DNA from: Paramacrobiotus metropolitanus
Lineage: Eukaryota; Tardigrada; Eutardigrada; Parachela; Macrobiotidae
Direction: 5' to 3'
Length of the DNA stretch: 64,000 nucleotides
Assembly: GCF_019649055.1 (NCBI RefSeq)
Contig: NW_026570270.1
Span: 1 to 64,000, forward strand
The notes under the pieces are model-generated. The model made no database searches, was not told where the DNA came from, and saw only the letters and a program-made list of their open reading frames with translations. Positions 22,439-62,075 of the stretch are shown piece after piece. Each line of letters opens with the position of its first letter. Position 1 is the first letter of the stretch. A program made the translations under genes and the position numbers.

Positions 22439-22846
22439 ATGTTGCTGCGCGCGGTGTTCATCGTTTGTTTGTTGGCAACAACGGTTGTTTCCGGTAATTC
22501 CCAAAATTATTGTTTTATTCATTTAACCAGACAGAAGTACTGCATGAGTGACGCAACATTTATGTTGTAGTTCTTGCTGTGAGTCCTGCGACAGCTTCGG
22601 AAGGCAAGTCGAAACCAGACAGCGGTAACGGCGGCAAGTCCGTTCCAAAGCACAGAAGCTGCCCACCGGGAAAATGTCGGAAACTGAACTGTAAACCCCA
22701 CGGTAAGAAGAGATTTTAAAAATTACAATGTCTATTTACATTAAATTTGTTTCGCTCAGTTGATGTAACCATAATACGAGAATTTGATTATGTTTTCGTC
22801 TTTTGCAGAGTATCAGTGTACTTGCTCCTGTGTTCCGGTCTCATAA
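22439..22846 (+). CDS. CRP1: small secreted cysteine-rich peptide
   Basis: Exons 22439-22493, 22571-22702, 22809-22846; 225 nt, 74 residues. Exon 1 is a signal peptide (MLLRAVFIVCLLATTVVS). Exon 2 has a Ser/Gly/Lys-rich lead and C-x4-C-x4-C (CPPGK then CRKLN then CKPH). Exon 3 has QCTCSCVPVS with C-x-C-x-C, then stop. Both introns are in phase 1, as in every family member below. The predicted mature peptide is basic with six Cys. Founder-like position at the left end of the array and only loosely similar to CRP2-5. No known family recognised; role unknown (antimicrobial, signalling or structural are all possible). Confidence 0.8.
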
Positions 22847-23150
22847 CCCCAGAAGTTTTTCAACGGAATGGCGGAAACAAGCGGCTGCCATGTGTTCTCA
22901 ATGTTTTGCAGTAGTACAGTAATTTGCCTCTGGGTGAAACGGATTAAGTTTTTTCATCTTGGCTGATAATGAATGAGTGCTTCTCAATGAGCACTGAATG
23001 AGTTACGTAATCCAAGTTATCCATCAGTTCGATATGAAAAAATGTTATTTAGAAATTTGTTTATTTATGAAGAAAATTTAGAAATCAATTAGCCAGTTCG
23101 CGTTTTTCATGGTTAAAACCGATTGCCTTCTAGAAGTACATTAAAATTTA
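22847..23150. other. Short spacer before the MULE-like element
   Basis: About 300 bp, AT-rich, nothing recognised. It ends in the 9-bp target duplication TAAAATTTA at 23142-23150. Confidence 0.5.
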
Positions 23151-23348
23151 GGAAACCGTTATAGGCACCCCCTAAAACCCCCGTTTATTATAGGCACCAC
23201 TTTTCACACCCCGTTAATTATAGGCACCCTTTTTTGAATTAAAAGTTATAATAATATTATGTGAAAGGAATATAATTCACATATTCCAAAAATTTATTCT
23301 ACCATTTTATACAGTTGCTATGACCGTAAAAATAACAGACCATATACA

Positions 23349-23371
23349 ACTATATATATATATATATATAT
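23349..23371. repeat. (TA)n microsatellite
   Basis: Simple TA run inside the MULE-like element. A second one lies at about 24322-24353. Confidence 0.8.
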
Positions 23372-23774
23372 CAAGGAACTAGATCTATAATACAACTACA
23401 AAAAGCTGAGGCATCGAGATCGGAAAAACCAGAACCTAATAAAAAAAACTGTAAACGCCATTAGACTCAGCATGTTCAAAAACTGTGTCACATGCATTTT
23501 ATTTCTTAAAAAAATTATTTAAACCCGTCCCACCGATGCCGGTTTCGGCAGAACTGGCTTCGGTAAAGTTTCAAGGTGACCTTGAGAATAATAGCAATGC
23601 CAGTTGCTTAGAACATTTATTAAAGTGTATGTACTACAATAAATTTGTAGTTATTTTATTTGCAAACATGTTGAATTTTAATCGCGTGATTGCTGTTCAA
23701 ATGTTCAATTTTTAAATGCCTAAAAAATCCGATTCCCTTGATTGAATTAGCCCAGGTTTCGAAGGAAACAAATG

Positions 23775-24185
23775 CCAGTGAACAAAACTGCTAAGGCAGT
23801 GAGTGACCCAACTACCGCCACTGTACAGTGAACAAAACGAAATCACTAGCTGAGTGATGACCGAGCAATAAATCACTACCCTAGGTGAACAAAATCGCTA
23901 GATGAGTCAGTGACTGAGCTACCACCACTGTCCAATGAACAAAACTAGATGAGTAAGTGACTGAGCTACCACCACTGTTCGGTCAACAAAATCGCTGGGT
24001 GAGTGAGTGACCGAGCTACCACCACTGTCCACTGAACAAATCGCTAGATGACACCGTTAGTGAGTGACTGAGCTACCACCACTGTCCACTGAATAAAACT
24101 GCTAGGTGACACCGTTAGTGAGTGACCGAGCTACCATCGCTGTCCAGTGAACAAAGTTGCTAACTGAGTGAGGGACTGAGCTAGA
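23775..24185. repeat. Degenerate tandem repeat, roughly 50-62-bp units
   Basis: About seven or eight units built around GTGAACAAA, GAGTGAGTGACCGAGC and TACCACCACTGTCC, with a variable ACACCGTTA insertion. It occupies what would be the transposase body of the MULE-like element. Confidence 0.7.
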
Positions 24186-24503
24186 TTCCTTGCCTAAGAA
24201 GTTCTACAATAACTGCTAAGGCAGTTAGTGAATTTACTAACGAATTACTGCCAATGGAATGATTTGTTCAAAGCGGCCGTGGATCACAAGAAACGCGGAG
24301 GCGAAGCCGCAGCGGTTTCTTGTATATATATATATATATATATCTATATATAAGAATTTGTATTCTTAAATAGTAATGCAGTTTAAGAACTATTTAAGAA
24401 TTTGTATTCTTAAATAGTAATGGATAATAGTACAGCAATTTTTTCTGGCATCGAGTTAAGGGAAGTGGCCCGGTACATGGTACCAAATTCATGCACATGC
24501 ACG

Positions 24504-25072
24504 AAATCTTTCACTTTCGCGCACTCCCAAACCGTTTTTTCTTTAGTTTTATGACATTCTGTAGTCAAATGATTTGTATACACAGGCCTGAAAACCGTTT
24601 GCGCGCGCAACATCCGGTTCGGGAGTTATGGCTGTAAGAAAATTCCCAATAGTTTAAATGCTTTCAGGTGTACCAAAAGTCTCATTATGGACCGATCTCC
24701 TTCAAATTTTGCATGTAAATGCACATGGCCATGAAGATCGTTTTTACACCGATCCACTGTTCTAGCATGTTTTTCAAATTTTAAAATGAATGAATTTCAA
24801 AAATTTTAAAATTCATTTTAAAATTTGAAAAACATGCTAGAACAGTGGATCGGTGTAAAACGTTCTTCGTGGTTATGCATTTACGTGCAAAATCTGAAAG
24901 AGATCGGTCCATAATGAGACTTTTGGTACCTGAATGCATTTAAACTTTTGAATTTTCTAACAGCCATAACTCGCGAACCGGATGTTGTTTCAGGCCTGTA
25001 TACGAATCATTGACTACAGATTGTCATAAAACTAGAGAAAAACGGTTTTAGAGTGCGCGAAAGTGCGAATTT
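24504..25072. repeat. Long imperfect hairpin, arms about 270-285 bp
   Basis: The left arm (about 24504-24790) is reverse-complementary over nearly its whole length to the right arm (about 24806-25072), with a short AT-rich centre near 24790-24805. It is nested in the MULE-like element and would fold into a long double strand if transcribed. Confidence 0.75.
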
Positions 25073-25130
25073 CCCATAAATACATCAGGCTTTCCAGCCT
25101 ATAATAGGACTGTTAGGTAAATCAGCCAGC

Positions 25131-26025
25131 CTAGAACGAATTAATATCGCGTCTTCTACTGTGACTGACTAGAAGGTCATCTTTCGCGGTAGTCAGCTCA
25201 TTCACTGCCTTCCTTCCAAGCCGTTTAGGACACCGTGTGATTTCCTCAGCCTGTAACGCTTCGGCCAACCATTCCCTTTGCGCTGAGGCTTTCGCGAATA
25301 CAGTGCTCGGCTGCTCGCCGGCGATACTCCAGAGATCTTTCACACGTATTTCGTTTAAATCGTGATTAACCATTCGCTCTTCCGTACGGCCACCTCGGTC
25401 CACTTTTTCCGCTTTGTTGCGGACAATGTCTTGGGCTGTTACAGCTTTGCCAGTCTCTTTAGCAATTTGACGTTGAATTGCCCGTGCAGGAATGAATGAT
25501 TTCCGCATTTGTACTAACTACCTTTTCTGCCTGAACATGGCTTAGGCGACGATTTTCCGGTAGATTTTTCCACCTGTCTGCTGTCAGTGGATGATTATGG
25601 CCCATTTCTCGTTCCAAAATCATCCGTAGGACGTGGCCGCGAATGCTGATTGCCAGCCTGACGCGAGCTGGGCACTGGTTTCGTCGGCTATGAGTAAATT
25701 TCCGAGCGCCAACGCCCTTCTTTTCGTATTCTTTGTGGCGCACGCATTCGTAGAAAATCTTTCTGTACTTAAGGGACGGCTCCAGAGCTTCTCCGTTCTT
25801 GAACTTTTCGGACCGTCGTATTATAAATGTTTGGAACGTTGCTTCCTGATACGTCTTGAAGTCTTTCTCGAGTTCTTCAAATGAAGGGTATTCGTCCTTC
25901 AGGTCAGCGACGCTGTCGAGTGAGGGGAATACTAAATCAGTTAAGGCTTCCGATGGCCCCGATGCCGGAGGGCTGCTTGAACCCGCCATAATATGATATT
26001 TGCCATTGCCGGTATTGAGAACCAA
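25131..26025 (-). pseudogene. MULE-type transposase N-terminal fragment, frameshifted
   Basis: Two overlapping minus-strand reading frames: 26025-25459 (188 codons) and 25508-25131 (125 codons). The first contains a Phe-x-x-Phe start, FIIRRSEKFKNG, then KIFYECVRHKEYE, QCPARVRLAI and GHNHPL, i.e. the C..C..H-x-H pattern of the FAR1/FLYWCH-like DNA-binding region at the start of MULE/ZSWIM-type transposases. The similarity of the second frame (RQIAKETGKAVTAQDI) to the same families suggests that one ancestral frame was split near 25.48-25.51 kb. No DDE core or SWIM finger follows. Non-functional remnant within the MULE-like element. Confidence 0.65.
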
Positions 26026-26268
26026 ATTATTGATTGTATGTATAACGCTATTACACTGACCTTTTGTTAAAAGTAAGTTTTTACGGTCATAGCAACTGCA
26101 TAAAATGATAAAATAAATTTTTGGAATATGTGAATTATATTCCTTTCACATAATACTATTATAACTTTTAATTCAAAAAAGGGTGCCTATAATAAACGGG
26201 GTGTGAAAAGGGGTGCCTATAATAAACGGGGGTTTTAGGGGGTGCCTATAAGGGTACCCTAAAATTTA

Positions 26269-27819
26269 ACTGCAACTACTAGCGTATGGGTTGTGTGGTG
26301 CATTCTATTCGAATTGCTTAATGCTTATATCTATATATTTTTCAGCACATAAGTAATGTGCACAATTGTACATAAATACTAATGGAAAATGATTTATATT
26401 CGTGGCCGAAATGCAGCATGATTAATGTGCAATGCGGAAAACTTTTTTTGTAAAAACCGGTTGCTGCGTTGTCAGTTTCCATGACAAATAGAATCAGATA
26501 AAACTTGCTCACATTAAACGTAAAGTTTACATAAAACATTCCAGAAATTTTAGTCTACTGTAGCCGCTCGCGCAGAATGTACCTGGTACATCGTGTGTGC
26601 AGTTCCAGCGTGTACACAAAAACGTACTTAAATACCACCCATCCGGAAACAAGAAACGGGGAAATTTGTACGAGTCATTCATGTTCGTAAATGCACATCT
26701 AGCCGAGATGTGCATGTGTGCCTGCGTTTGTTCCCTGTATACGCTCTAGCTCCCGTTTCCGGATGGGCTTGTAGCGTACAAAAAAATAACTTTGCCGGAA
26801 TCCAAGATTGTCGACAACTATTTGGAATGTGTCAAATTGTTAATGTTTTTCCCTAACCGCACAGGCGATTATTTTTGGTTTTTTGTCCTCGCATTTTTCG
26901 CACAGTGCATTTGATTTTAGACATCTTTGATCGCACGATTATGTTGCGGCATTTGCGATGGGGATACATGACTGTAGTTTTTCAGAATCATTAGACTTTC
27001 GAATCGCTGCATCTCGGAAAACTAATACATTAACGTCTAATACTGCTTATTTAAAATGTGTTTCGGAACGCTAGAACGCTAGAAGGTTGTGCGTGGGAAA
27101 GATGGAATAATACTGACCGTGAGCAGTAGTCACATAAAGAAAATAAACTGTATGCCAAACAGTATTTCAAAATGACTTAATGACTTCTTTTTTTTAAAAC
27201 TCTATTAATTGTGCACAATATGTATTGAACCTTATAAGATTTTTTAATTAACATTAGGATTTCGATTTGTTTTCGGGGATGCTTCACGATAAATGCACGG
27301 AACCAATACGATGCCATCACCATTTGGCACAAATTAACAAGCCAGAAATAACCATTTGAACAATTTCTGAAATCAGAGAAAACTCAGAAAAGTTAAATTT
27401 GTCAGTCTGGCCATCCGTGGAGTCATGTATTGCGTAATACATGCGCAACAAAGGAGCTTTCGAAACTGTTCTTGTAACCAGTATATGTACATAATAAAAA
27501 AAGCGCTATTGCCGATTACGCAGTACGAGGATTTTCATGTAAGCACAATTATTAAACATGCACGCTTTAATTTGGTTGCAGATTGTAGCGAGCGTATAGC
27601 ACTATGAGTCAATTAAATGGTGTTTTCAAATAAAACGTCAACAAGTCTTGTTTTTCAGCTAACCGCATACATACAGTTCATACATGCAGACAGTAGATTT
27701 AATTGGCGGTTGCATGTTGTAGATTGCCATATAAGTTTGTCTGCTTTGCTGAATTCGACTTGTAGTTCAAATCGCCGAACCGCTTACTTTCGTTTCTGCT
27801 CGTTTGAAACAGTGGCAAA
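26269..27819. other. Spacer between the MULE-like element and CRP2
   Basis: AT-rich, no supported gene. Only the CRP2 TATA-like sequence (27730-27735) is recognised near its right end. Confidence 0.5.
27730..27735 (+). promoter_or_regulatory. TATA-like box of CRP2
   Basis: TATAAG 90 bp upstream of the first CRP2 ATG. CRP3, CRP5, CRP6, CRP7 and CRP9 have a TATA word at 90-116 bp upstream. Confidence 0.4.
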
Positions 27820-28341
27820 ATGAATAATAAAATTATGATTGTCTCTTCCTTTTTGGCTCTCCTCCTAGTGGCGACCTTTGTGACACCGTCAACCGGTAAC
27901 AACGATCCATCGAAATAATTTATTATCTAGACAGGTTTATCAGTGTTTTCTTTGCGGTGTTTTGACAGGAGCGCCGGCTAAGGAGGGCTCTTCACACATT
28001 GCAAAGGCATGTAAGCCGAAGCCGTGTAGAAAGCCTGACTGCGAACCTCCGAGTAAGTGTCAGAAAGCCGTATTACTACGCTTACATATTAAACATAATT
28101 GTGCATCGGCGTATGATAAAAATTAATCCAGTTTGATCTGTGGGAAAAAGTAACAAAGTTAGCAAACTAGGACTCGCATTTTGTACTTCATTCGAACGAT
28201 GCATAAGGTAGAAAAAGTCGAATAGTTTGTTGATCTACCAGTAACGTGCCCGTTTATATTCGTGTGTGTGCTTTTGTAGTGATAGTGCCTCCGTGTGGAT
28301 GTAGCTGTGTTTTGCCAGAAGACCGTGGTAAAAAAGAGTGA
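27820..28341 (+). CDS. CRP2: small secreted cysteine-rich peptide, Lys/Pro-rich subfamily
   Basis: Exons 27820-27895, 27969-28052, 28280-28341; 222 nt, 73 residues from the first ATG. A second in-frame ATG at 27835 gives MIVSSFLALLLVATF..., the same length as its neighbours, so either start is possible. Signal peptide ends PSTG, right at the phase-1 junction. The mature part APAKEGSS... carries C-x4-C-x4-C (CKPKP, CRKPD, CEPP) and then CGCSCVLP. Basic overall. CRP2 to CRP5 share GAP(A/S)(K/E), the Pro-Lys-rich three-Cys exon and CxCxCVLP, so they are recent tandem copies. Function unknown. Confidence 0.85.
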
Positions 28342-30247: not shown

Positions 30248-30766
30248 ATGCTCGTCCGAGTCGTTCCTGTATTTGCGATCCTTCTCCTAATGGCTATCTT
30301 CGTGGCACCATCAAACGGTAAGAACGATTTATTTGGTACTTGTTCCGACAAAGTTATCATCACCCTATCTGTGTTTTGTGCGCTTTTATTTTCAGGAGCG
30401 CCATCTAAAGAAAACTCTCCCAACATTGTGAAGGCGCCATGTAAACCGAAACCTTGTGTGAAGCCTCATTGCAAACCCCCAGGTAGCATGCGGCACAGCC
30501 GTACTAAATAGTCAAATTATATAATTATTGTATAATTTTTAGTATCTCGACATATGATAGAAACGTCGATTTCCCTGAGAACGAGTATAGCGAGAATCAT
30601 ACTTGTGTATTTTTGTTATGTAGCACAGCCTAATCCAAAGTGCATAATAATTATTATGACTGTTTTTAATTAAGCAAAAGGGGAATTAATTCGCGCTTTT
30701 GCAGAGGTGTGGCCTGGTCCTTGCAGTTGTAGCTGTGTTCTACCGAAAAACAAAACCACTTCATAA
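30248..30766 (+). CDS. CRP3: small secreted cysteine-rich peptide, Lys/Pro-rich subfamily
   Basis: Exons 30248-30317, 30396-30482, 30705-30766; 219 nt, 72 residues. Signal peptide MLVRVVPVFAILLLMAIFVAP. Mature part begins GAPSKENS and has CKPKPC, VKPHCKPP, then exon 3 with PCSCSCVLPKNKTTS. The Cys pattern is C-x4-C-x4-C then C-x-C-x-C. Rich in Lys and Pro, strongly basic, compatible with but not proof of an antimicrobial or matrix peptide. Exon 2 ends in G rather than the A seen in CRP2, 4 and 5. Confidence 0.87.
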
Positions 30767-33302: not shown

Positions 33303-33803
33303 ATGATGCTCGTCCCTGCACTCGCGCTCTTTCTCCTGGTGGCGACCTTTTCGGCACCGTCAACCGGTAAGAACGCTTTGGATGATGTTTATCCCCATGG
33401 TTTTATCAGCGTCCTTATACGATTTGATTTACAGGAGCGCCTGCTGAAAAGAGTTCTTTAAAAATTATGGAGCCGTGTATGCTGAAGCCGTGTATGCAGC
33501 CTATTTGCAAACCTCCAAGTAAGTGCTACTGGTACGTAGACGCGCTAGTACGTAATATCGGTAATTATGCCAAGCAGCGGAATCCAGCTGTGCGGCGCCA
33601 AAGGGTCCAGGCAACCCATAATGAGCGGAAGCGCAAGTATGATGCGGTCTATTCAAACGTCTAGAGAGTATTCAAATAATCATCATGTTTAGCTTCTAAT
33701 TTGAATTAAAAGGGTTTTATAATTATGCGCGTTTGCAGAGGTGGCAACTCCGTGTTCTTGCGACTGTGTTTTGCCAAAGAATCATTCCGGAAACCATCGG
33801 TAA
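33303..33803 (+). CDS. CRP4: small secreted cysteine-rich peptide, Lys/Pro-rich subfamily
   Basis: Exons 33303-33366, 33435-33518, 33739-33803; 213 nt, 70 residues. Signal MMLVPALALFLLVATFSAPSTG; the first or second Met could start. Exon 2 reads APAEKSS... then C-x4-C-x4-C (CMLKP, CMQPI, CKPP). Exon 3 reads VATPCSCDCVLPKNHSGNHR. Same splice phases and lengths as CRP2 (84-nt middle exon). The spacing and signal peptide are closest to CRP5. Confidence 0.85.
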
Positions 33804-36040: not shown

Positions 36041-36505
36041 ATGATCGTTCCTGCACTTGCGGTCCTTCTTTTAATGGCGACCTTAGTGGCACCTTCAACA
36101 GGTTATAACGATTCATTTGGTAAATATGCTCGGCAAATTTAATAATGCCTTGTGCGTTTTTATTTATAGGAGCGCCTGCTGAAAAAAGCTCACCGAACAG
36201 ATGTTTGGCAGTCAAGTGTCTCAAGCCTCATTGCAAACCTCCGAGTAAGTGTCACACTTCACATACATTTGTGTGCCAGTTTTTTTATTTTGCGTTTGAC
36301 CCGTGGTTCCAAGCAATATGAATAAACAAAGTCGGTGAATCACACTGCAGCGTGCATACTAGCATTATGCTGCATATTCCACCGTAATAACGCAAGGTGT
36401 ATTATGTTACTCTAATAATTGAACTAAAGTATTTCATGCATTTTTGCAGTGATATCGGCCAGTTGCGGATGCAACTGTGTTCTGCCAGACAAGAAGTCCA
36501 CTTGA
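36041..36505 (+). CDS. CRP5: small secreted cysteine-rich peptide, Lys/Pro-rich subfamily
   Basis: Exons 36041-36101, 36170-36244, 36450-36505; 192 nt, 63 residues, the shortest member. Signal MIVPALAVLLLMATLVAPSTG. Middle exon APAEKSSPNR then CLAVKC, LKPHCKPP (C-x4-C-x4-C), nine bases shorter than in CRP4. Exon 3 ISASCGCNCVLPDKKST. The first donor is GTTATA, weaker than the GTAAG of its neighbours, so exon 1 could be spliced less efficiently or use another site. Just downstream lies the LTR retrotransposon. Confidence 0.8.
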
Positions 36506-43448: not shown

Positions 43449-43452
43449 GCCG

Positions 43453-43917: not shown

Positions 43918-44419
43918 ATGCACGCAGTCTACGTTTTTGCTGTCCTGCTTGTGGCAGCAAGCCTCTTTACGCCTGGTAAGGAGAAGCAATCGTATCAAAT
44001 TGGTATAGCGCTAAACAAATAGCTGTGATACGATAATTATTAATAGAAGCAAGCTTTGAGCAACTGCTCCACTTAACCATAGCCATACACTTAACCATAG
44101 CCATACTAATTCCAGATCCGAGTTGACCAGCTCTTAACTTTTATATTGTTAGGATACTCTGCCGATGCAAAAACGTCGGATTCTGCTAAGAAGCCATGCA
44201 AAATCGAAAAGTGCGCCCTTGTCTGCAGAGCCCCAAGTAAGTTGTTACTCTTCTGCCTTATAAGTTTCAACGTAATGGACACCATTCAATGGACACCATT
44301 CACAGCGTGTTTCTTGCTGTAATATAATTCTCGATCTTCGTTTGATAGAAGTTCTGAGCTCCTGTGGATGCCATTGTGTTACACCAGGAGGAGGTAAATC
44401 GGTGGAAGCTCCGTTTTAA
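43918..44419 (+). CDS. CRP6: small secreted cysteine-rich peptide, SVEAPF subfamily
   Basis: Exons 43918-43975, 44153-44236, 44349-44419; 213 nt, 70 residues. Signal MHAVYVFAVLLVAASLFTPG. Exon 2 YSADAKTSDSAKKPC... with C-x4-C-x3-C (CKIEK, CALV, CRAP). Exon 3 VLSSCGCHCVTPGGGKSVEAPF. CRP7 shares the signal, the YSADAK start and the terminal SVEAPF, so the two are direct tandem duplicates. Function unknown. Confidence 0.87.
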
Positions 44420-46076: not shown

Positions 46077-46169
46077 TAACAGTTGAAGGCACTTCTGCCA
46101 ACTTCACAGTTCACATTTGTGCAAAGAAAACTTTTTCGTATTTTGCCCCGTTTCCAGCTTTACTGCACG

Positions 46170-46595
46170 ATGCACGCATATGCCTGTGTTTTTGCCGCGC
46201 TGCTTGTGGCAGCAACCATTTTTACGCCTGGTAAGCAAATGTATCCAGATGAACCACCGGTGATGCAAGTCTGTGACTCCAACCAATATTTGTTTTGAGT
46301 TACCTAGTCATCTATTTATTTTTCTTATTTGTTAGGATACTCTGCCGATGCAAAACCGTCCGATTCTGCTAAGAAGCCGTGCAGGATTGTACCGTGCGCC
46401 CTTCACTGTACACCTCCAAGTAAGCCGCCAAACTTCCGCGTTTTCTAAATTTTATTGTGCCAATCACCATTCATTGTGTGTCTTGCTTTAAAAATTATTT
46501 TTGATATCCGTATAATAGAAGTCCTGAGCTCCTGTGGATGCACTTGTGTAAATCCATTTGGTAGTAAACCTGGCTCTGTGGAAGCTCCGTTTTAA
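46170..46595 (+). CDS. CRP7: small secreted cysteine-rich peptide, SVEAPF subfamily
   Basis: Exons 46170-46230, 46336-46419, 46519-46595; 222 nt, 73 residues. Signal MHAYACVFAALLVAATIFTPG. Exon 2 YSADAKPSDSAKKPC with C-x4-C-x3-C (CRIVP, CALH, CTPP). Exon 3 VLSSCGCTCVNPFGSKPGSVEAPF. An in-frame ATG 87 bp upstream would add residues before the hydrophobic segment; I prefer 46170 because it matches CRP6 and gives a clean signal peptide. Confidence 0.87.
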
Positions 46596-47384: not shown

Positions 47385-48416
47385 TCAACGATACAAAAAA
47401 CGCAGCTTTTCCGCGAACCTCCGAGAAGCATTTTTTAGATCGTCGATGGAAGCGATGAACAGTAGCGGATCAACTGCCGAGTGAATTAGTTTGATAATGT
47501 TCGCCACTTGGAAAAACACACTTTGCATTGCAAAGCTTGGGACAACGTAATACACATTGATCGGTGTCCAGCACAAAAACACACTGGCTGTTAAAAGAGC
47601 TAAAATTCTGTAGCTATGTCGTGACCTTCTCCGTGGCACCGCAACAGAATCCTGCGGATTGCGCCCCGTTTTCGATGTAGCAACCTGCGTGACCTTTACC
47701 GAACCCGACGTCCCTCCTTGTGAAGACGGCGAATTTTGTATACGGTTTACTTTCCACTGAAACGTTCTCCGGTGTAAAATAAGAGGGCACGTCAACAAAA
47801 TGATAGTTTCCGGAATAAATAAGGAAACAATGTTGTAACTGTACGTCCAGGTCACCAATGCGTGGTTCATAAAATTCATCAGGCAGAATTTGTTGAGGAA
47901 CGGTGTTCGATGTCCTAGTCCATCGATGGCCGTTGCCGGGATGACACACGCCATGACAATCACGCCGGCCACTACACACGCCGACACGGCAAGTTTAAAG
48001 GAATGATGCGCACGATACGAGTGCGGATACACGATAGCCCAGATGCGGTTAAAACAGATGAGAACGTGGATAAACGGGATGTACCCGGCAATGATGGAGC
48101 GCAGCGTAATATGGATGGAGCAGAATACAGAATCCTGCTGATTGGAAAGGTTGTTTTTTATCATGAGAAATAGGGTATTCTGTATAATGCTGCTAATGAT
48201 GTTCGCCAAGGCTAAAACAATAAGATAAACTCCGAACGATCGCTGCAGAACTTGCTTATCGGCGAATAGAATTAGTAGAAAGGCGTTTGTACACACTCCT
48301 GCAGCACAGATGATCAGCGTTATAATCTGCATAAAGTTCAGGCTTAATTCGTCACTGGATCCATTCCATGCAGAGCTTCGGCTGCCGTAAGTAGTATTGT
48401 GATTGGAAAGGTTCAT
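47385..48416 (-). CDS. Receptor 1: intronless divergent rhodopsin-like GPCR
   Basis: Single exon, 343 residues. N-terminus with several N-x-S/T sites. Seven hydrophobic segments at roughly 29-51, 62-87, 100-121, 141-163, 190-212, 270-291 and 303-322. Class A features: Asn44 in TM1, Cys99 at the top of TM3 pairing with Cys178, CWTP (282-285) in TM6. Departures: LALAN with Asn72 where Asp is usual, NRI (123-125) in place of DRY, DPLLF (316-320) in place of NPxxY. The third intracellular loop is about 55 residues and basic. Plasma-membrane receptor, ligand unknown; a peptide is plausible from the context. The TM2/3 layout and overall sequence are shared with receptor 2 at 55.5 kb. Confidence 0.88.
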   Translation of the reverse strand: MNLSNHNTTYGSRSSAWNGSSDELSLNFMQIITLIICAAGVCTNAFLLILFADKQVLQRSFGVYLIVLALANIISSIIQNTLFLMIKNNLSNQQDSVFCSIHITLRSIIAGYIPFIHVLICFNRIWAIVYPHSYRAHHSFKLAVSACVVAGVIVMACVIPATAIDGLGHRTPFLNKFCLMNFMNHALVTWTYSYNIVSLFIPETIILLTCPLILHRRTFQWKVNRIQNSPSSQGGTSGSVKVTQVATSKTGRNPQDSVAVPRRRSRHSYRILALLTASVFLCWTPINVYYVVPSFAMQSVFFQVANIIKLIHSAVDPLLFIASIDDLKNASRRFAEKLRFLYR

Positions 48417-49801: not shown

Positions 49802-50444
49802 TCACGGAATGTCAGGTCCGACTACACTGCAGGGTAGATCTTTGGTCAAGCAAGGACGGGATGGTGAAGGCACCGCTACCGGTATGCAAGGCGGACAGTT
49901 GCATCCCGCTTCCAGTGCTGAGACAATACAAAGCAATAAAACAAATTTTTCAGCTAAAGTAATTGGATATGATCATTATGAAATATTGGACACAACTTTA
50001 TGCTTTACAAAGCAAGCAACTTTATGCTTTACAAGTACTAAAATATAATTACGATATATCATATTCCATCTATACATACAGCGAATCACATGAAATCGGC
50101 AAATATCCGCATATGTACATATTTTTTACTGGGGCGCAATAATTTTTGAAGAAACTTACATCGACTAGCAATGGCAGCAAGGGACGGAACCGAACCAGCA
50201 CAAGACATAGTGGTGCATGCGCAAGGAATGTTCGGATTTACGAGTCCAAATAAGGTCGGTACACCGTTAACTGAAAAAAAATATGATGTAAATGCATGAT
50301 AAAGTCTATTAAATTCAGAACTATAGCTAGCGCAAGTGGCTTAGCTCAATTTGTATTTAATGGCTTACCTAAAGAGATCATGGTGAAAGAAAAATAACAC
50401 AGGAAGATACTGTAGAAAACGCGATTTACTGATGATCCATACAT
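49802..50444 (-). CDS. CRP8: small secreted cysteine-rich peptide on the minus strand
   Basis: Exons 50444-50369, 50270-50160, 49917-49802; 303 nt, 100 residues. Exon 1 MYGSSVNRVFYSIFLCYFSF... ending in G before GTAAGC; exon 2 after a T-rich CAG acceptor reads VNGVPTLFGLVNPNIPC then ACTTMSC with C-x-C-x4-C and AAIASR; exon 3 has EAGCNCPPCIPVAVP and CLTKDLPCSVVGPDIP. Both introns are phase 1, exactly as in the plus-strand genes. The tail CLTKDLPCS matches CITKDKPCS of CRP9, and the AGCxxC start of exon 3 is shared too, so CRP8 and CRP9 are a head-to-head inverted duplicate pair, 686 bp apart. The splice sites and frames fit without adjustment. Confidence 0.82.
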
Positions 50445-51130: not shown

Positions 51131-51624
51131 ATGCCATTTCTTCGTTCTGCTCAAATCGCTGTATGCATAGTGATGCTGTCCTGGATCCCAACAGGTATGC
51201 AATAGGTGTGCTCAATAAAACTGCACGGAATTCGAATTTATTAAGTTAATAAGAACCATTGTTCCGGCATTCAGGCTGGTCCATTCCAAACGTTTTTTTG
51301 ATGCAAAACCCGGGTGACTGCTTGTGCCCGCCGTGTGTATCTCCGATGCCGGTTGTGGCGGCTGCCGCTCCAAAACGTAGGTGTATAAAATGCATTGAGA
51401 GACCATAGCAAATTTGTTGCTGATATCCGACGAACTTCCAAATATGTTATTTTGTAGTTGCACAAGCCGGTTGCCCGCAGTGTGCCTGCAATACCGGAAA
51501 CGTCCCGCCTCCTGTCCCGCTACAATCATCGGGAAGCTGCCCGCCGGGGGGCGCACCGTGCCTGTGTATAACCAAAGATAAACCGTGCAGTATTAATCAA
51601 CCACTTCCGCCATCCCCGAAATGA
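51131..51624 (+). CDS. CRP9: secreted cysteine-rich peptide, long third exon
   Basis: Exons 51131-51194, 51275-51376, 51458-51624; 333 nt, 110 residues, the longest member. Signal MPFLRSAQIAVCIVMLSWIPT. Exon 2 GWSIPNVFLMQNPGDC then LCPPC (C-x-C-x2-C) and AAAAPK. Exon 3 AGCPQCACNTG with C-x2-C-x-C, a Pro-rich stretch, then CPPGGAPCLCITKDKPCSIN and a Pro tail. Ten Cys in the mature part. The three-Cys groups keep the family layout but with shorter spacing, and extra Cys pairs were added in exon 3. Partner of CRP8. Confidence 0.83.
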
Positions 51625-52314: not shown

Positions 52315-52986
52315 ATGTATCTAATGGTAGTTTTTTCGTTAACCCTGATTTACTCGGGTGGGTTCTTTATTATTTTCCTGGATTATACATGATAATGTTG
52401 TTAATCGTTTGCCGGTTGTGCAACTATGCGTGGAAAGTTATTCAGTTAGTCAACAATTTTCTGTTCTTTTTGTAGCTGCTTCCGCTCCCGATGCGTCTTC
52501 TATCGTTAGACCTTGCCTGCAGTGTATGTGTGCTCAACCAGTGAGCGCCATCTCATCCGCTGCATCAAATGCCGGTAAGAAGGCGCAACCTCTTGTACGA
52601 GCACGTTTGATTACAATTCGCTTACTTAAGCCCTACAATTTTAACTGCTAGGTTTTTATAATGGTTAAAATTTTTTTATGCAATTCCTCATCAAGTTACA
52701 TACTCGTACTAATACCATATAATAAATAAAAAGCTATAATCGCGATATAAATTTAATATTTGATCTAAATAATATGTGTGTACATGTAACTTGGTTCCTT
52801 GACATGTTTTACTCGTTCATAGTATCCATCAACCAATGCGGCTGCAATTGTGGTGGCATAAATCCTGTTCCTGTTCCGGCCCCTAATCCTTGCCCTGGAC
52901 CAATCATCCTTCCGGTGTCCGGCGTCCAACAGTCGGCGGGTGCAAACGCCCTGATTCGACCTTGCCCCCTAACCGCAACTGCGTAG
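52315..52986 (+). CDS. CRP10: secreted cysteine-rich peptide, Pro/Gly-rich subfamily
   Basis: Exons 52315-52357, 52476-52574, 52823-52986; 306 nt, 101 residues. Short signal MYLMVVFSLTLIYS. Exon 2 AASAPDASSIVRPC with C-x2-C-x-C (CLQ, CM, CAQP) and SSAASNAG. Exon 3 NQCGCNCGGINP..., a Pro-rich NPCPGPII segment, and a tail IRPCPLTATA. CRP10, 11 and 12 share SAPD, the AA(S/T)NAG end of exon 2, the C-P-G-P-I motif and a late C-P-L. The first donor (GTGGGT) is non-ideal, but phase and homology support it. Confidence 0.8.
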
Positions 52987-54005: not shown

Positions 54006-54823
54006 ATGAAGTCTTTAACCCTGTTATTATCGACTCTTCTTATTTCCCAGGGTAAGTAAAAAATATTTTATCAATATTTTAATTCTGACAGAATCAGTTA
54101 TTTAATGATTAATCACGTGGAATACAAGTTTCGAACAAAAAATCCGCACACAGCAAATCTACCAATCCTGAAAACTTGACAAACGAGATGAGCAGAAGTC
54201 TAAAAGAAAGAGCCTCCACATGTCACACAAACTAGGTCACTGGTTAGCGGTCGAAACGTTATTCTGACAGAATCCCCAGCTTTTGAATCTTTCTGGTAGT
54301 TCTTGGCAGTCTTAGGTGTCACCTGCGAACTTTTCTGTTGAATGTTGACCTATTGGGAGACATCATTAATTACTAGTCATTACATCGATTTATACATAAA
54401 TTCGTCGTGACCTCATCCTTCACACGCACTGAAATTTGCAGTTACTTCGGCTCCTGATACATCTGTTCAAATACCCTGTGTCCATTGCGACCTGGCGTGT
54501 GTACAACCAATCAGCGTAATTTCTTCAGCCGCAACCAATGCTGGTACGGTGTCTCCACCGTATTTATTTTTAATAATTATATAGTGCAACAGATATGCTT
54601 GGCATTTTCAAATTCAGTACCTTAATACCGGTTCCTTTATACCGAAAGTGTTGTTAGCAATTTATATAATTCGACAGTAACGAATACCCAGTGCGGTTGC
54701 CAAGGATGTGGACCCATTCAGCCACAGCCGTGCACGGGACCGATTTTGGATCCTCTTCCTGGCGGCGTACAATCGGCCAGTTCGGCCATCATCCGACCGT
54801 GCCCTTTGAGTGCAACTGGATAG
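54006..54823 (+). CDS. CRP11: secreted cysteine-rich peptide, Pro/Gly-rich subfamily
   Basis: Exons 54006-54051, 54442-54543, 54678-54823; 294 nt, 97 residues. Signal MKSLTLLLSTLLISQ. Exon 2 TSAPDTSVQIPC with C-x2-C-x3-C (CVH, CDLA, CVQP) and SSAATNAG. Exon 3 NTQCGCQGCGPIQPQPCTGP (C-x-C-x2-C), then a Gly/Ser stretch and IIRPCPLSATG. Followed by receptor 2 on the opposite strand. Confidence 0.86.
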
Positions 54824-55495
54824 CAACACAGTTCTCTTACTTCTTTATAATCCGGGAAACTGCACCTCTTCAGGCTAGTACTAAAAGACCGAAGCGAACC
54901 CCAGAAACGGTATATTGCCTTTGTAGAACGCGTACATACAGTTTCCTTCAGACGCAACACGGAAAATATCATACTGATCGTGTGAATTATAAAGCCAATG
55001 TAGTTCTTTATAGATAAGCTGAAAGTTTGACTTTGCATACAGCTCTCTTTTTATAACTTGTTTAATAAAATATACCCTGTTTTAATTCATAGCATTAGAT
55101 ATTTTAAGCTGCCTAATTTCATCTCAAGCCATACAAAAAGGCACGTCTGTAATAACTTACAGACGCCTATTGTGAATGCACTCGATCAGTTCTGTTGTAG
55201 AGGAAGCCGATACAGGCATGTGAATCAGGAAACCATTAATGTGCTGCAAATGCAAATTCGGGTGTTTTAATTTCCTTGGCACGCAACATTTCGAATGCAT
55301 CGCTGTAGTAAAATTACAATTTCATGGAAGTCTAGCAGAAAACCGGGCACGTTTAGCACGCATTATACAACACTCCTTATGATCGATGACGTTCGACTGC
55401 AATAAATCCCTGTATTTGGACCTTGTTCACACGTGGGTAACATTTGTTCAACACGTGCATTTAAAAGACGTCTGGACAATTAACAAACCATCCTA
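54824..55495. other. Spacer CRP11 to receptor 2
   Basis: AT-rich, no gene recognised; it covers the 3' flanks of two convergent genes. Confidence 0.5.
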
Positions 55496-56524
55496 CTATA
55501 ATCTGTTACACAGGATCTTTTTCGTGCATCTCCAGTACGCTTCCTTCAAATCGTCAATAGAGGCAATAAACAGTACCGGATCAATCGCCGAATGCACCAG
55601 TTTGACCACATTAGCAATCTGAAAGAACCTGGTGTGGCTCGTAAGATTTGGCAATACGTAATATACATTCACCGGTGTCCAGCAAATAAACACACTAACG
55701 GTCAACAGCGCTAAAATCCTGTAGTTCTGTCGTGGATGCTTGCGTAAGGCAGAACCGTTGCGGCTGACATCGTGCCCATCAATAACATCATTATCCGTGG
55801 ATCGTTTGATTCCCCGCGGCGACATCCCACTCGGTGTTACCCGCATACGATTTAACGGTATCGCACGTTTGCGTAGCAGAAACGGGCACGTCAACAGAAT
55901 AATACTCTCCGGGATAAACAGCGAAATAATATTGAAACTGTACGTCCATTTAACCAAATCTTCGTTACTGAAGTTCATTCGACAGAATTCGTTTAGCGAC
56001 GGTGTACGGCCATGCAGAGCGTCGACGACGGTCGCCGGTATAACAAAACCGACGATGACGATAGCCGCTACGACACAGGCAGAAATAGCCAGTCGGAACG
56101 TATGACGCGCGCGGTACGAGTACGGATATACCAGCGCCCAGATGCGATTGGCGCAGATCAGTACATGGATGAACGGAACGTACGCGGTGACAATCAGGCG
56201 CAGCGTCATGTGGACGGAACAAAATAAGGAATCATCTTCAGGAGAGAGAACGTTCTTGACCATCAGGATGAGACCATTCTGTAAAATACTATTTATTATG
56301 TTGCCAACGGCCAAAATAATTAGGTACACTCCAAAGGAGCGCTGCCAGACGTGTCTATCACAAAATAACGACAATAGGATCAGGTTAGAACAAATGGCCA
56401 TGAAGCAGATGGTCAGTGTCACGATCTGGATTGCATTAAGGCCCGATGGATCTCCGGCGTCAGGTGATCCTTCCACACATTTTATAGTAGAATTCGATAA
56501 GGTACGATTGCTATAATCTGCCAT
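55496..56524 (-). CDS. Receptor 2: intronless divergent rhodopsin-like GPCR
   Basis: Single exon, 342 residues, clearly paralogous to receptor 1 over the full length. N-glycosylation sites near the N-terminus. TM features: Asn47 in TM1, Asn75 in place of the usual TM2 Asp, Cys102 with Cys181, NRI (126-128) in place of DRY, CWTP around Trp282 in TM6, and DPVLF starting at Asp315 in place of NPxxY. The identical pattern of departures in both copies says they are inherited, not random damage. The end of TM7, FIASIDDLK, is identical in both. Ligand and coupling unknown. Confidence 0.88.
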   Translation of the reverse strand: MADYSNRTLSNSTIKCVEGSPDAGDPSGLNAIQIVTLTICFMAICSNLILLSLFCDRHVWQRSFGVYLIILAVGNIINSILQNGLILMVKNVLSPEDDSLFCSVHMTLRLIVTAYVPFIHVLICANRIWALVYPYSYRARHTFRLAISACVVAAIVIVGFVIPATVVDALHGRTPSLNEFCRMNFSNEDLVKWTYSFNIISLFIPESIILLTCPFLLRKRAIPLNRMRVTPSGMSPRGIKRSTDNDVIDGHDVSRNGSALRKHPRQNYRILALLTVSVFICWTPVNVYYVLPNLTSHTRFFQIANVVKLVHSAIDPVLFIASIDDLKEAYWRCTKKILCNRL

Positions 56525-59060
56525 AGCCCGTTTGCGGTTCGAATGTTTTGGCGAAGATTGTTATAACGGCAATGATAATAACAATTTTACTATACGATCT
56601 ACCTCGTCAAGGTGTGTAAATTAATATGATCGACTTTCGTGCGCTCATCTGCGTGGGAACTGCTTTCCCTGACAAGGAATACGTAGATGCCAAATCGCAT
56701 TATACGCGGTAGCTCGGCGTTGGTTCAGGTCTGTGTAAGGCATGAAAGCCGTCTTTTCTGTGTTAGCGTAGGAGGAAGCGGTCCCCAAGGAGTCCATTAA
56801 CGTAAGCATAAGCTGGATTCGGGAAATAATTCTCAGTCAGTAAAATAATAAGCGCAACGATGCACCGCAGATTTACTCATGCTTATCAAAGACGCTATAT
56901 TAAGCACTGCAGCGACACTAGAGGTGGCAAACCTTACCCGGTACTACCGTATAAGGACCTGCGACGCGTCATCGCGGCACACATCAACAACCGGTCGGCT
57001 GTTAGCTGCCATTGGGCTGTTAATCTGTTACCGTTACAACCGGCTTAGCATGCAAAAGAAAAGCAAGATAGAAGCAAATTTGCAACTGTTATTAATTTCC
57101 GGAAATTGGTAGCGTCACCAACTCGTATATTTACCGACAACGATTTATCCAGCCTTTCTCGCAGAAAGTTTATCGACGACGTGGTGCGCCAACTCAGTTG
57201 TCGGAAATCCCTGTTAATGACCGTTGTGATTACTTGTCAATTTCCAGTAAGCGCTAAGTTTTGTCGACGAACTGAAAGCTACAGAGTAAGCGAAGGGCCT
57301 CTATGCTCCAGAAAACGGGATTGTGTCGGTTACGTCGGTCACGCGCTTACAACGCTCGTTTTCCACTCAGATGCCAGTAGATGCAATTCAGTTTCCCGCT
57401 TCGATCCGGTCTTTTAGCGCCAGCCAACAGCGGTGTACAAATTGTATTTCCTTAGTATTAAAGCGATGCTCTTAAAGCATCTCAAGGGGAATTGCTTATA
57501 CAGCGCTTCCAAGGAGCAATCGACTGTTCAGCTTGGAAAAAAGGATGCGAGGTCACGGAGCAGCGATGGCTAAACTTGGAAGCGGAGAAGATGGAAGTAA
57601 GATCAACATATCGGAGCACAGACTGAAATCCGTCCTAGAACGAGACTGATTTTGCGTTAACCTTTCTTAGTTAAATCACATGCGGAATGGACGATTTGCG
57701 TAATTATGGGTGACCACAGAGTTAATTCCATTACAGAAGATAACCGCTGTCCGCGGTTGATAAGCGGCAAGGATTTTTTCCCTGTGCAAATACGATGGAA
57801 GATTCACGAACATGAACGTCATGGATACGTTAGTTTCGTGTTTCCGAACAAACGGTCTCCTGAGATGCTGCACGTGATGCCGGTGGGTGCACCAAGTGGC
57901 CGCCATTTGTACAAAAGAGATGCAGCCTGGAAACACCAAGGTTTTACAATAAGGTTCCCACGCAGTTTGCACAAAACCCCGGTTGGTACACCCTCAAAAT
58001 ATTGCTCACAGCCAAACATAGTGCTGAATTGAATTAGTTTGTGATTGAATTTTATATGCGTGTGGTAGACACCGAGCGTCGATTACAGTGCATTGGCTAT
58101 ACATATACTGCTGATCACACACGACATCGTTAATAATTCTACAATTACAACAACGGTGTCCGAATTTTTCCTCACGTTTGTTGCGGCTTCTTGGCCTGTA
58201 GGAAGCACGGATTCAAGTACTGTTCTACAGCATTACAGCGGTGCGTTTTATAAGCTTAGCCGGCGAGCCTCCCGGTATTGACAAAGTTAGTTAGTGGTGT
58301 ATTTATAAAAAGGAATTATTTTATGTTTATGCGCATCTGCTGGGTTGTTGCGTACCTGTACAAGCCGGTCCGGATGATGAGCACGATAAAGAACAGTGAA
58401 AAATGTAAATTCATGGGGTTACGCCAAACGCCACGCTACGCCTCACTGTTTAAACACGTAACATGCGTTTCGCTGGCTGGTGGCCTGCTGCGCACCTGAT
58501 AATTTAATGAGAATACTTGTAATTGCCTGGCGGATGGTGGCTAGAAAACGGTCGGTGCAGTAAGGGACACTAACTGCGGAGCGCATTTACGCATTGTGGT
58601 AAACGTAGTGTAGTGGCCATCGTGCTCAGCGCTAATATCGCGCTAAATATGCATTAGCTGTACCTTTACGTGCTCATTACACGGACAGGCTTGTACAGAT
58701 ACACTTACCGACTGACAAAGTAGCCAGGTAAATGTCTCGTGTGGGCATCGGATGACAGTGCAAATTATCGGCGGCACATTCCGATTACATTTCCTTAAAA
58801 CAATCAGCACATCCAAAAAACTGCTTGGTAATGCTCGTACATACTGTACTTGCGCGCTTACATATGTACATCTTAATAACCTTAACAGCTTAATCTTATA
58901 AAGCAGACAGTGGTGCGCCGAATGCTGTGTTTTTAGTTGGCAAATGAAACATATCATCGACCGGTGCGCTTGTAATATTTATTAAGTAATTTTATTTATG
59001 CATTTTTTACTGCTATTTGTTTACTGATAATTAATTTGTCGGAACGAGTCAAAAGGCAAA
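56525..59060. other. Spacer receptor 2 to CRP12
   Basis: 2.5 kb with no confident gene. Several frames of 60-108 codons occur between 56.86 and 58.5 kb in GC-richer sequence, the longest at 57706-58032. None has a signal peptide, a family motif or splice-linked neighbours. Confidence 0.4.
57706..58032 (+). CDS. Doubtful 108-codon hypothetical protein
   Basis: Open from ATG to stop with an amino-acid mix that looks coding-like (GKDFFPVQIRWKIHEHERHG, MPVGAPSGRHLYKRDAAWKH), but the opposite strand is also open over much of the length, and no domain is recognised. Could be a real intronless gene, an exon of a larger one, or chance. Confidence 0.22.
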   Translation: MGDHRVNSITEDNRCPRLISGKDFFPVQIRWKIHEHERHGYVSFVFPNKRSPEMLHVMPVGAPSGRHLYKRDAAWKHQGFTIRFPRSLHKTPVGTPSKYCSQPNIVLN

Positions 59061-59640
59061 ATGTTTACGATCGTGGTAGTTGCCTCCCTTTCGCTAATCT
59101 GCTCAGGTCAGTCGAGTGGAATATGCACAAATTGATTGCCCACATCGTATATAGGTCATCCAAATCTCTTTTTCTCGGTGCATTTGTACAATCGCGTATT
59201 CCCTTGAAATATTCTGCAGTTTCTTCGATTTTTATTTGCAGCAATTTCATAACAGAAGCAATGATAATAAAAAGCTAGCCTAAATTGGTTACGAGTATAT
59301 AAATTGTTGTTTTACAGTGACATCTGCTCCATCGGATGCGGCTATTGCATGTGTACATTGTGACTTGGTTTGCGCCAATCCGTTACCAGTCGCCGCCGCT
59401 ACGAATGCCGGTAAGTACGTCAAATAAATAAAATAGTAATATTATCCCAGGCTATTTAAAAAAAATCGTTTGGACCATAATGTTTCGTTGATTGTTGCAG
59501 CAACAAATACACAGTGCGGATGTCATCCATGTCAACCCGTCAATCCGTGTCCGGGACCTATAATTAACCCGGGCGGACCAATCATACTGAACCAAGCTGA
59601 CAGCTCAAACATAATGTGCCCTTTAAACACCGCCGGATAG
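59061..59640 (+). CDS. CRP12: secreted cysteine-rich peptide, Pro/Gly-rich subfamily
   Basis: Exons 59061-59106, 59318-59410, 59501-59640; 279 nt, 92 residues. Signal MFTIVVVASLSLICS. Exon 2 TSAPSDAAIAC with C-x2-C-x3-C (CVH, CDLV, CANP) and AATNAG. Exon 3 NTQCGCHPCQPVNPCPGPII, then a Gly/Asn stretch and MCPLNTAG. Closest to CRP11 (shared CVHCDL and NTQCGC). Confidence 0.86.
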
Positions 59641-60207
59641 CTCTAGACAACAGCATTTAACCTCGAATTTTCTGCATGCGATGAGTGTTTTTAATGCGTT
59701 TTGAAGAGTTTGTTGTCCATATTAGAAGAAAACCTGTTAAAGATTTACCGTTCTGTAAAACAGTTATTAATATGCAAATAAATCCCATGTTAAGCTGTGA
59801 ACTGTAAGTATTGAATTATGTTGCCGTACAGCACACCACGGTGTATCTAGTTTACTGCATGCCGCATTGTTTCAAAAGCTTGGATTACAGCATTCGGTAC
59901 AGAGACACGTGTGAAAAGAAAACCGGTTGTTTTGTTGTTGTTGTGATAACGGTCCACGCAGATTCGATGAAAACGAGATGTGCGTTTTTGACGCCAAACG
60001 CCAAATTCTTAGCACAACGCGGCTTTTCCCATTGCGTGTTTGAACGAATCAAACGGGTTCATATACCAGAGAAATGACTCGAGAGTGTCGATAAATCTAT
60101 ATCACGCGAGTAACATTTCTTTGCTAAAATCAGAAGTGAATTGCATAACTCCAAAAAAATTGGTATCATCAGCTAAACCAGTTCGCATTCTGAGCCACTT
60201 AGTAAAA
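59641..60207. other. Spacer CRP12-CRP13
   Basis: AT-rich; only a chance frame joined to the CRP13 intron was seen. Confidence 0.5.
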
Positions 60208-60772
60208 ATGCATTGCACCTCAGCTGCTCTCCTGTTCCTGTTGGCTCTTGTACATTCTGGTAAGATATCTAATTTCTGTTCCAGGTTTTTCGCCGATCGT
60301 CATTGGTCACAGAAGATCCATAAACGCGCTGCATCGTGTACTTTCGTTGCAGGGAACTGCGGTCCAACGAACCTGGCGTCTCCAATTTCTCCTATTAGCC
60401 AACCTATATGTCCGTATATGTGCAACGTTTTCTGCATGCCACCATGTAAGGAACCGATATGACCTTTATTTAAACTACTGTTTATTAAATGTAATGATAG
60501 CGATCAAATATAATTGTTGTAACATGCTTTGCCATAGAGTACGCATACAGGAGTATGGCAGAGTAGAATATGCAGTTGCACATCGTATTATCCCGTAATG
60601 ATATTAATATGACTGTTCCGGAGGAAACATTTATTTCGCGGCTTCCGGCGCTAATAACGGTTTTGACTTTTCAGCGGTTTCGGTTAACTGTGGATGCGGA
60701 TGCACACAGCCAACCAGTCCGTGTCAGAATGTGGCTGGCGTTGCCAAACCCGTCCCATGTGCTATCGCCTAA
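60208..60772 (+). CDS. CRP13: secreted cysteine-rich peptide, PTNLxSPISPI subfamily
   Basis: Exons 60208-60259, 60353-60445, 60675-60772; 243 nt, 80 residues. Signal MHCTSAALLFLLALVHS. Exon 2 GNCGPTNLASPISPISQPIC with C-x3-C-x3-C (CPYM, CNVF, CMPP) plus one extra early Cys. Exon 3 VNCGCGCTQPTSPCQNVAG and PVPCAIA. CRP14 shares the exon 2 motif, NCGCGCT and the exon lengths, so they are a tandem pair. Confidence 0.86.
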
Positions 60773-61542
60773 TTAAATACAGTACAGTAGTGGGCAGTTC
60801 GTTTTGCAGTTCAACTCACAAAACAATTATAGTTTTTAGATCTTTGTATGTGCATTTGTTATAGAAGTATAGAAACTGTCATAAAACTTGTGGATACTAT
60901 TCTGTACATTTATTCGGTTGATGGCATCCGATATGCAAAGTGGTAGAATGACATTATAAACATTCAGCAAATTGACTGCAGATAAACAGCTGCTGCACGG
61001 TTCTTGCTTGCTTTAGATCTGAGACCATTAAAACTTCATATTTGTTTTCAATATAAACAAATGCAGCTACAGTACATTACAATACATTGCGGCATAAGTA
61101 ACGAATCGATCCATTAAATTCCGCTGCTTTGTTTGTTTTTCCGTAATATAAACGTACGAGCATAACAAATGTTTTTATCTTCGCAATAAATGTACGAGTA
61201 TATTATATGAATTGATGTTGTTGATTACGACTTGTAGATTCAGAAGCACATGCGCCGGTAAAAACCGGTTAGCGTTTGTGTGTAATTGTGTAAGTAATAA
61301 CAATTACTGTTGTTTATGTCGTTCTTCTATGGCATATTCCGTGAAATGTGTTGTGTTTTCCGTTCAAGGCGCACTGCTACGCAGTACACACAGAGCAAAC
61401 AAACAGACGTCGAATTCATTTTTATAACGAGTCGCACTGTTAACCATTCAATTTCTGCTGTTAACAAGAGCTGAAAAGTTAATAAATTGTTTTACGTGAG
61501 AAAACTCTCGGTTACCCAATCTTCCCAAGAAGATTCTGGAAA
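60773..61542. other. Spacer CRP13-CRP14
   Basis: AT-rich, nothing recognised. Confidence 0.5.
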
Positions 61543-62075
61543 ATGGTTTGCAGCGCCTCCATCGCATTCACAAGTATTGGCTTGTTCCTGCTGGCTTCGT
61601 TGCAATCAGGTAAAAACCGTTTTGTCGTTAGTGCATTTTGCACAAATGATGGGGTACTGTACGGTAGTTTAATCATGCTCGACGCGTTACTACGAGGCAT
61701 TCCCTTTGCAGGGTACACTACTGACCCAACGAACTTGGTTTCTCCCATTTCTCCGATCGGAGGACCATGCGGGGTTACCTGCATGATCGCATGTGTTCCG
61801 CCGGGTAAGCGGTCGTTGTTAGTTTTTGCCACTCATTAAACTACAGTAGACTCTTTATATGACCCTTATTTTTTACCCGATCCCACAGTTATATTCGTGG
61901 CGACAGGGAAACCGGTCGGTTGGCGAATACTTGCCGGCGATAACATGTACGCATTAATAAACATTTTGCGTTTGTTGCAGCTGTCCGTATTAACTGTGGA
62001 TGCGGTTGCACGAATCCCTGTCAGACCGGTGTGAAGGTGCCTGGAGGACCTTGCAATATAGCACTACCTCCTTAA
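61543..62075 (+). CDS. CRP14: secreted cysteine-rich peptide, PTNLxSPISPI subfamily
   Basis: Exons 61543-61609, 61712-61804, 61981-62075; 255 nt, 84 residues. Signal MVCSASIAFTSIGLFLLASL. Exon 2 TDPTNLVSPISPIGGPC with C-x3-C-x3-C (CGVT, CMIA, CVPP). Exon 3 INCGCGCTNPCQTGVKVPGG and PCNIALPP. The extra early Cys of CRP13 is absent here (GYTTDP in place of GNCGP). Last member seen before the third receptor. Confidence 0.86.

Follow-up and report, generated by a model that had tools for sequence, protein, structure and literature searches.

The first 64,000 nucleotides of contig NW_026570270.1 of the tardigrade Paramacrobiotus metropolitanus (assembly GCF_019649055.1, forward strand; this whole stretch is the window referred to below) carry a tandem array of 14 predicted genes for small, cysteine-rich peptides, g1 to g14 (Table 1). 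Rebuilding every gene model from the window confirms that the array is real. All 14 have intact frames, three exons and a single terminal stop, and they code for peptides of 63-110 amino acids. The 28 introns all run from GT to AG, all in phase 1, and the 42 exons join without a frame error. This is the architecture that a first, sequence-only reading of the window had proposed, and rebuilding upholds it, counts included. Thirteen genes lie on the plus strand, g8 alone on the minus strand. Exon 1 encodes a hydrophobic, signal-peptide-like segment and, with signal peptides assessed by hydrophobicity only, the 14 intact models bear out the description of a tandem family of secreted-looking, cysteine-rich peptides. 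The distribution of the cysteines had been given as C-x(1-4)-C-x(1-4)-C in exon 2, followed by a group of the C-x-C-x(1-2)-C type in exon 3. This holds in most genes, but g13 has a fourth cysteine in exon 2, and exon 3 of g9 reads C-x2-C-x-C. Two boundaries are uncertain: exon 2 of g1 has four possible in-frame acceptors, at 22571, 22595, 22604 and 22619, and g2 has two candidate start positions. From g1 to g7, successive genes are spaced by about 0.8-2.5 kb, two intervening elements not being counted.

In 13 of the 14 genes the stop codon is followed within 300 nt by a poly(A) signal, as happens at 43% of random places (p 1.7e-4); in seven, a TATA-like word stands 55-150 nt upstream, against 18% (p 6e-3, an optimistic value, as this interval was picked after a first look). 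A scan with fixed rules (hydrophobic first exon, exon with three cysteines, exon with CxCx(0-3)C, two phase-1 introns, both strands) recovers 12 of the 14 genes, g3 and g9 failing its filters. The scanner was designed after the genes had been read, so that only the contrast with controls is informative. The same scan finds no locus in 182 kb of distinct sequence elsewhere on the contig, sampled between 64-182 kb and 696-760 kb as 20 stretches of 10 kb, each sharing 1 kb with its neighbour, and none in positions 1-22,000 of the window. With other combinations of intron phases it returns up to six loci in the window and none in the other stretches; such loci are expected, since real exons get reused with wrong edges. 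It might be argued that the exons are mere artefacts of low-information sequence: they are short, and one locus each does turn up in two of 30 copies of the window randomised by a first-order Markov model. This explanation deserves almost no credence in front of 12 loci in the window versus none in the 182 kb of controls, of the poly(A) signals, and of two features described below, the arrangement of five subfamilies in spatial blocks and the conservation of exons over introns in most close pairs, with ratios of nonsynonymous to synonymous substitution (dN/dS) below 1.

Coding constraint and kinship among the subfamilies

Members of a subfamily sit next to one another along the array: A (g1-g5), B (g6-g7), C (g8-g9), D (g10-g12) and E (g13-g14). 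In most pairs of close paralogues the exons are more alike than the introns. Between g6 and g7, identity is 82-84% in exons, 62-69% in introns and 52-58% in flanks. Among g2-g5 it spans 55-79% in exons versus 42-68% in introns; exon 2 reaches 65-73%, against 42-51% for intron 2, and the range of intron 1 (53-68%) overlaps that of exon 3 (55-67%). Computed pairwise over the whole protein after Nei and Gojobori, a rough measure at such divergence, dN/dS lies between 0.11 and 0.66, hence below 1, in all nine computable pairs: 0.24-0.66 among g2-g5, 0.39 for g6/g7, 0.23 for g10/g11 and 0.11 for g13/g14. Synonymous sites are saturated in g10/g12, g11/g12 and g1/g2, and there the ratio is not computable. 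By this crude test the nine pairs give no sign of positive selection: the coding sequence is under constraint. The family had been called rapidly evolving at first reading, which is right as to its high divergence, but the ratios in the nine pairs speak of constraint.

Each subfamily has its own cysteine frame. In exons 2 and 3, respectively, it is C-x4-C-x4-C and C-x-C-x-C in subfamily A; C-x4-C-x3-C and C-x-C-x-C in B; C-x3-C-x3-C (with one extra cysteine in g13) and C-x-C-x-C plus two in E; C-x2-C-x(1 or 3)-C and C-x-C-x(1-2)-C plus two in D; and C-x-C-x(2 or 4)-C followed by five or seven cysteines in C. The core of A, B and E has 6-9 residues between the two cysteine triads. The third cysteine is followed by Pro-Pro-x-Val/Ile in seven of these nine genes (g6 has Ala-Pro, g1 departs from the pattern), and intron 2 falls within the codon of the x.

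To what extent does kinship go beyond the cysteines? Profiles of the mature parts were compared with hhalign, against 25 shuffles that preserve the cysteine columns and 25 full shuffles. The scores of A-B (37.9), A-E (23.2) and B-E (29.1) were reached by no shuffle of either type, and this overturns, for these three pairs, the earlier statement that only the cysteine frame, intron phases and lengths tie the subfamilies together. At the level of sequence, A, B and E (nine genes) make up one family, with similarity beyond the cysteines. Two further pairs, B-D and C-D, are marginal (two of 25 cysteine-preserving and none of 25 full shuffles reach the score in each; a repeat for C-D gave 4/50 and 2/50). 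The A-D score was reached by six and one shuffles of 25, respectively, and neither this pair nor A-C, B-C, C-E and D-E stand clear of the shuffles. A joint A+B+E profile likewise fails to reach D (4/50 and 2/50) or C (39/50 and 39/50). As judged from these profiles, C and D probably form a second, weakly linked pair of subfamilies. Position and exon layout make it a reasonable inference that all five share a common origin. To be sure, many genes for secreted proteins have a phase-1 intron behind the signal peptide, and the shared phase is for this reason weaker evidence of kinship than first supposed.

Searches for relatives and further copies

No described family had been recognised from the letters of the sequence, and the databases concur. 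When all 14 proteins were scanned against Pfam-A with hmmscan at E<=10, the only family returned was ETRAMP, for two members and without significance (best E 0.18). A profile of the 14 matched a single PDB sequence, a tyrosine kinase, at E 0.41, which leaves no convincing relative among proteins of solved structure. A search of a protein collection with the alignment of g1-g7 (subfamilies A and B) found no relative, and a control with a G protein-coupled receptor (GPCR) from the array matched only itself; as that collection seemingly holds no other tardigrade proteins, this outcome is not evidence of restriction to the species. Nothing in Rfam matches the window at gathering scores. Among the matches listed for the tardigrade and Paramacrobiotus literature, titles and opening lines of abstracts contain no description of this peptide family.

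Outside the array, searches of the whole genome with single proteins (g4, g7, g9, g11 and g14) had no match below E 0.2. They are insensitive, as g4 matched g2 and g3 but missed g1 and g5, g14 missed g13, and g9 missed g8; further members may therefore exist elsewhere. With tblastn, the window and the 20 stretches of the same contig yielded no credible further member (best outside match E 0.007, many at chance level). Two candidate loci, L047 (E 0.21) and L048 (E 4.6), were discarded, having no gene of the array type. A search at the DNA level, with the region of g1 as query, uncovered a relic of g1 on the minus strand of the same contig (C50 in our numbering), at C50:719.6 kb within stretch L035 (C50:714001-724000), with 74% identity over 508 columns; it retains exon 1, the start of exon 2 and the upstream region, without the cysteine exons. 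Otherwise that search matched the mobile element next to g1. Within reach of Pfam, PDB and genome searches, the peptide family would be new, and of a well-known kind. Animals commonly make new secretions by way of lineage-restricted arrays of secreted, cysteine-rich peptides, and this array would be an ordinary case of lineage-specific gene expansion.

Neighbouring genes and elements

Two rhodopsin-type GPCR genes lie within the array (Table 1), which raises the idea of a ligand-receptor gene cluster, with the peptides as ligands of these receptors. The two copies are 57% identical, and they belong to a genome-wide expansion that gives 120 matches at 118 scored places of 1,173 candidates, the array's own two included. 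With receptor copies so numerous, finding some beside peptide genes is to be expected. Queries of the genome with five of the peptides, of low sensitivity as said, gave no further peptide genes; the sequences in PDB nearest to the first receptor are muscarinic, and two of the 38 matches listed are receptors for a peptide (somatostatin). A ligand-receptor cluster is therefore highly improbable, and the GPCR genes are probably incidental to the array, given the expansion. Another receptor-like frame is visible by eye on the plus strand from near 63706.

Two elements interrupt the array. The one between g1 and g2 has 192-nt inverted ends (95% complementary) and internal repeats; a frame inside it (25459-26025, minus strand) matches ZSWIM3_N in Pfam, and ends resembling its own occur at many places in the genome. 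The one between g5 and g6 is bounded by two direct repeats, 98-100% identical and about 6,024 nt apart, and looks like a young element of the long terminal repeat (LTR) type; the frame between the repeats has no Pfam match. Just upstream of the array, four related trypsin-like frames with an RIVGG motif form a tandem serine-protease cluster (one of the two scanned matches Pfam trypsin, E 2.5e-4). In the same upstream region a 51-bp tandem repeat (11633-12326; 13.6 copies, 93% matches) overlaps a repetitive open reading frame of 227 amino acids. Downstream of the array, three of ten frames scanned match Pfam families: IAP (BIR), caspase and galactosyltransferase. Elsewhere, the genome has TPS-family matches in three places, on contigs C67, C84 and C208, and three TPS-TPP genes are published for this species under its earlier name Paramacrobiotus sp. 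TYO (PMC8277472). A lipocalin/FABP search produced a fatty-acid-binding protein of the ordinary sort.

Table 1. Peptide genes of the array and features beside or between them (window positions; exons in order of transcription)
Feature	Position	Strand	Details
g1 (A, divergent)	22439..22846	+	exons 22439-22493, 22595-22702 (acceptor uncertain), 22809-22846; 66 aa
g2 (A)	27835..28341	+	exons 27835-27895 (or ATG at 27820), 27969-28052, 28280-28341; 68 aa
g3 (A)	30248..30766	+	exons 30248-30317, 30396-30482, 30705-30766; 72 aa
g4 (A)	33303..33803	+	exons 33303-33366, 33435-33518, 33739-33803; 70 aa
g5 (A)	36041..36505	+	exons 36041-36101, 36170-36244, 36450-36505; 63 aa
g6 (B)	43918..44419	+	exons 43918-43975, 44153-44236, 44349-44419; 70 aa
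g7 (B)	46170..46595	+	exons 46170-46230, 46336-46419, 46519-46595; 73 aa
g8 (C)	49802..50444	-	exons 50444-50369, 50270-50160, 49917-49802; 100 aa
g9 (C)	51131..51624	+	exons 51131-51194, 51275-51376, 51458-51624; 110 aa
g10 (D)	52315..52986	+	exons 52315-52357, 52476-52574, 52823-52986; 101 aa
g11 (D)	54006..54823	+	exons 54006-54051, 54442-54543, 54678-54823; 97 aa
g12 (D)	59061..59640	+	exons 59061-59106, 59318-59410, 59501-59640; 92 aa
g13 (E)	60208..60772	+	exons 60208-60259, 60353-60445, 60675-60772; 80 aa
g14 (E)	61543..62075	+	exons 61543-61609, 61712-61804, 61981-62075; 84 aa
Rhodopsin-type GPCR genes	47385-48416 and 55496-56524	-	single-exon
Mobile element between g1 and g2	23141-26269		
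Element between g5 and g6	36858 to about 43435		
Trypsin-like frames	2228-2629, 7375-7923, 14054-14602, 18947-19471	-	

Possible functions and known systems

The mature parts of the 14 peptides (876 residues) contain 16.2% proline, 11.5% cysteine, 9.5% each of alanine and serine, and 1.5% of phenylalanine, tryptophan and tyrosine together. Their net charge is +3 to +6 in g1-g7 (A and B) and -3 to +2 in g8-g14 (C, D and E); with a span from +6 to -3, cationicity is not conserved. What is conserved is the cysteine frame, together with a filler of Pro, Ala, Ser, Gly and Val, and not charge. The array would have grown as a tandem, birth-and-death set of genes whose small peptide products are secreted. 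In each, exon 1 encodes the signal-peptide-like segment for a presumed secretion, and exons 2 and 3 one cysteine triad each, which splicing unites into a six-cysteine core that would then form disulfides. In subfamilies E, D and C the C-terminus is extended by a tail bearing at least two additional cysteines. Cysteines and prolines would be retained while the filler diverges freely. Tentatively, and as the foremost of the functions considered here, the peptides may serve, linked by disulfides, as components of an extracellular matrix or secretion, be it egg envelope, cuticle or gland product. On tardigrade egg-envelope proteins, the titles and abstract openings of the literature matches listed contain nothing.

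Several observations weigh against this picture, in whole or in part. Between g1 and g2 the exons (47-53% identity) are conserved no more than the introns (50-52%), and exon 3 of g10/g12 (49%) falls below intron 2 (53%). Homology of C and D to A, B and E gains at most marginal support from the comparison of profiles with shuffles. Proline stands beside cysteine only marginally more often than in shuffled sequences (38 of 101 cysteines against a mean of 30.3; 105 of 2000 shuffles reach that count). Low aromatic content and richness in cysteine also suit antimicrobial peptides, and A and B are short and cationic, which is not required of matrix proteins.

The last points lead to host defence. 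The peptides might be antimicrobial or other defence peptides, stabilised by disulfides and diversified by tandem duplication, and tandem arrays are typical of antimicrobial peptides. The mature parts of A and B are indeed short (43-53 residues) and cationic, with 11-14% cysteine. The near-neutral C, D and E fit this account poorly, as do the dN/dS values below 1 wherever computable and the failure to match any defensin or other antimicrobial family in Pfam. Nor is there an excess of kB-type sites upstream (14 x 500 nt contain no strict match and two loose ones, a weak test). A survey of tardigrade immunity leaves open whether tardigrades have novel antimicrobial peptides (PMC7056985). A role in defence is, on balance, unlikely, and the matrix reading is slightly preferred to it because of the composition and because only A and B are clearly cationic.

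GATA sites, like kB sites, show no upstream excess. Forkhead-type and C/EBP-type counts stood out against random windows (reached by 1/300 and 0/300, with eleven motifs tried) and were considered as a sign of expression in foregut or glands, an interpretation abandoned when the excess shrank against dinucleotide shuffles (4-8/200 reach it); the forkhead form TRTTTRY is equally frequent upstream and downstream (31 and 31). The hexamer GAGAGT, present in five of the 14 upstream regions, is nominally enriched among all hexamers.

A third family of functions places the peptides in the reproductive tract, as seminal or accessory-gland secretions, a class known for small, secreted, fast-diverging genes in clusters. 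The four trypsin-like frames just upstream of the array are in keeping with this, and in P. metropolitanus 325 genomic bins, spread over 29 scaffolds, are enriched in highly male-biased transcripts (PMC11191345). In the text consulted the array's contig is not named among the 29 scaffolds, and the dN/dS values are devoid of any sign of positive selection. Reproductive secretions come out as distinctly improbable, although those published sex-biased clusters make the idea easy to test. Composition and genomics would thus rank a matrix or secretion role first, an antimicrobial one second and a reproductive one third.

The functional question is cheaply testable, since P. metropolitanus has a genome and published RNA-seq from males, females and desiccation. 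If expressed, the array would add a peptide family to a phylum for which the existence of novel antimicrobial peptides is stated to be open (PMC7056985). The halves of the cysteine frame lie on separate exons, and this makes a clear case for tracing how, inside a single array, such a frame grows from six cysteines to ten.

Known systems share some of these traits. The tardigrade secretory-abundant heat-soluble (SAHS) proteins are likewise a tardigrade-specific secreted family; by their usual description they differ in being larger, lipocalin-like and not rich in cysteine. Invertebrate CS-alpha/beta defensins are also small secreted peptides with six cysteines and a CxC near the C-terminus. Their frame is C...CxxxC...C...CxC, with an extended spacing between the fourth and fifth cysteines, whereas the second triad of the array is C-x-C-x(1-2)-C in 13 of 14 genes (C-x2-C-x-C in g9), with no Pfam match to them at E<=10. 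Small proline-rich proteins of the cornifin type, which are cross-linked, are similarly rich in proline and cysteine and poor in aromatic residues, and Pro-Lys-Cys stretches occur in g2-g4; the array peptides depart from them by a signal-like first exon, a fixed six-cysteine frame, no repeats and no corresponding Pfam match. Insect chorion genes of the high-cysteine classes have two exons, a central conserved domain and long Gly-Cys repeats. By contrast, all 14 genes of the array have three exons and fixed cysteine triads, and none matches them in Pfam. Yet the chorion clusters resemble the array in their tandem genes for small secreted proteins, with a split-off signal-peptide exon, cysteine-rich arms and diverged subfamilies side by side.

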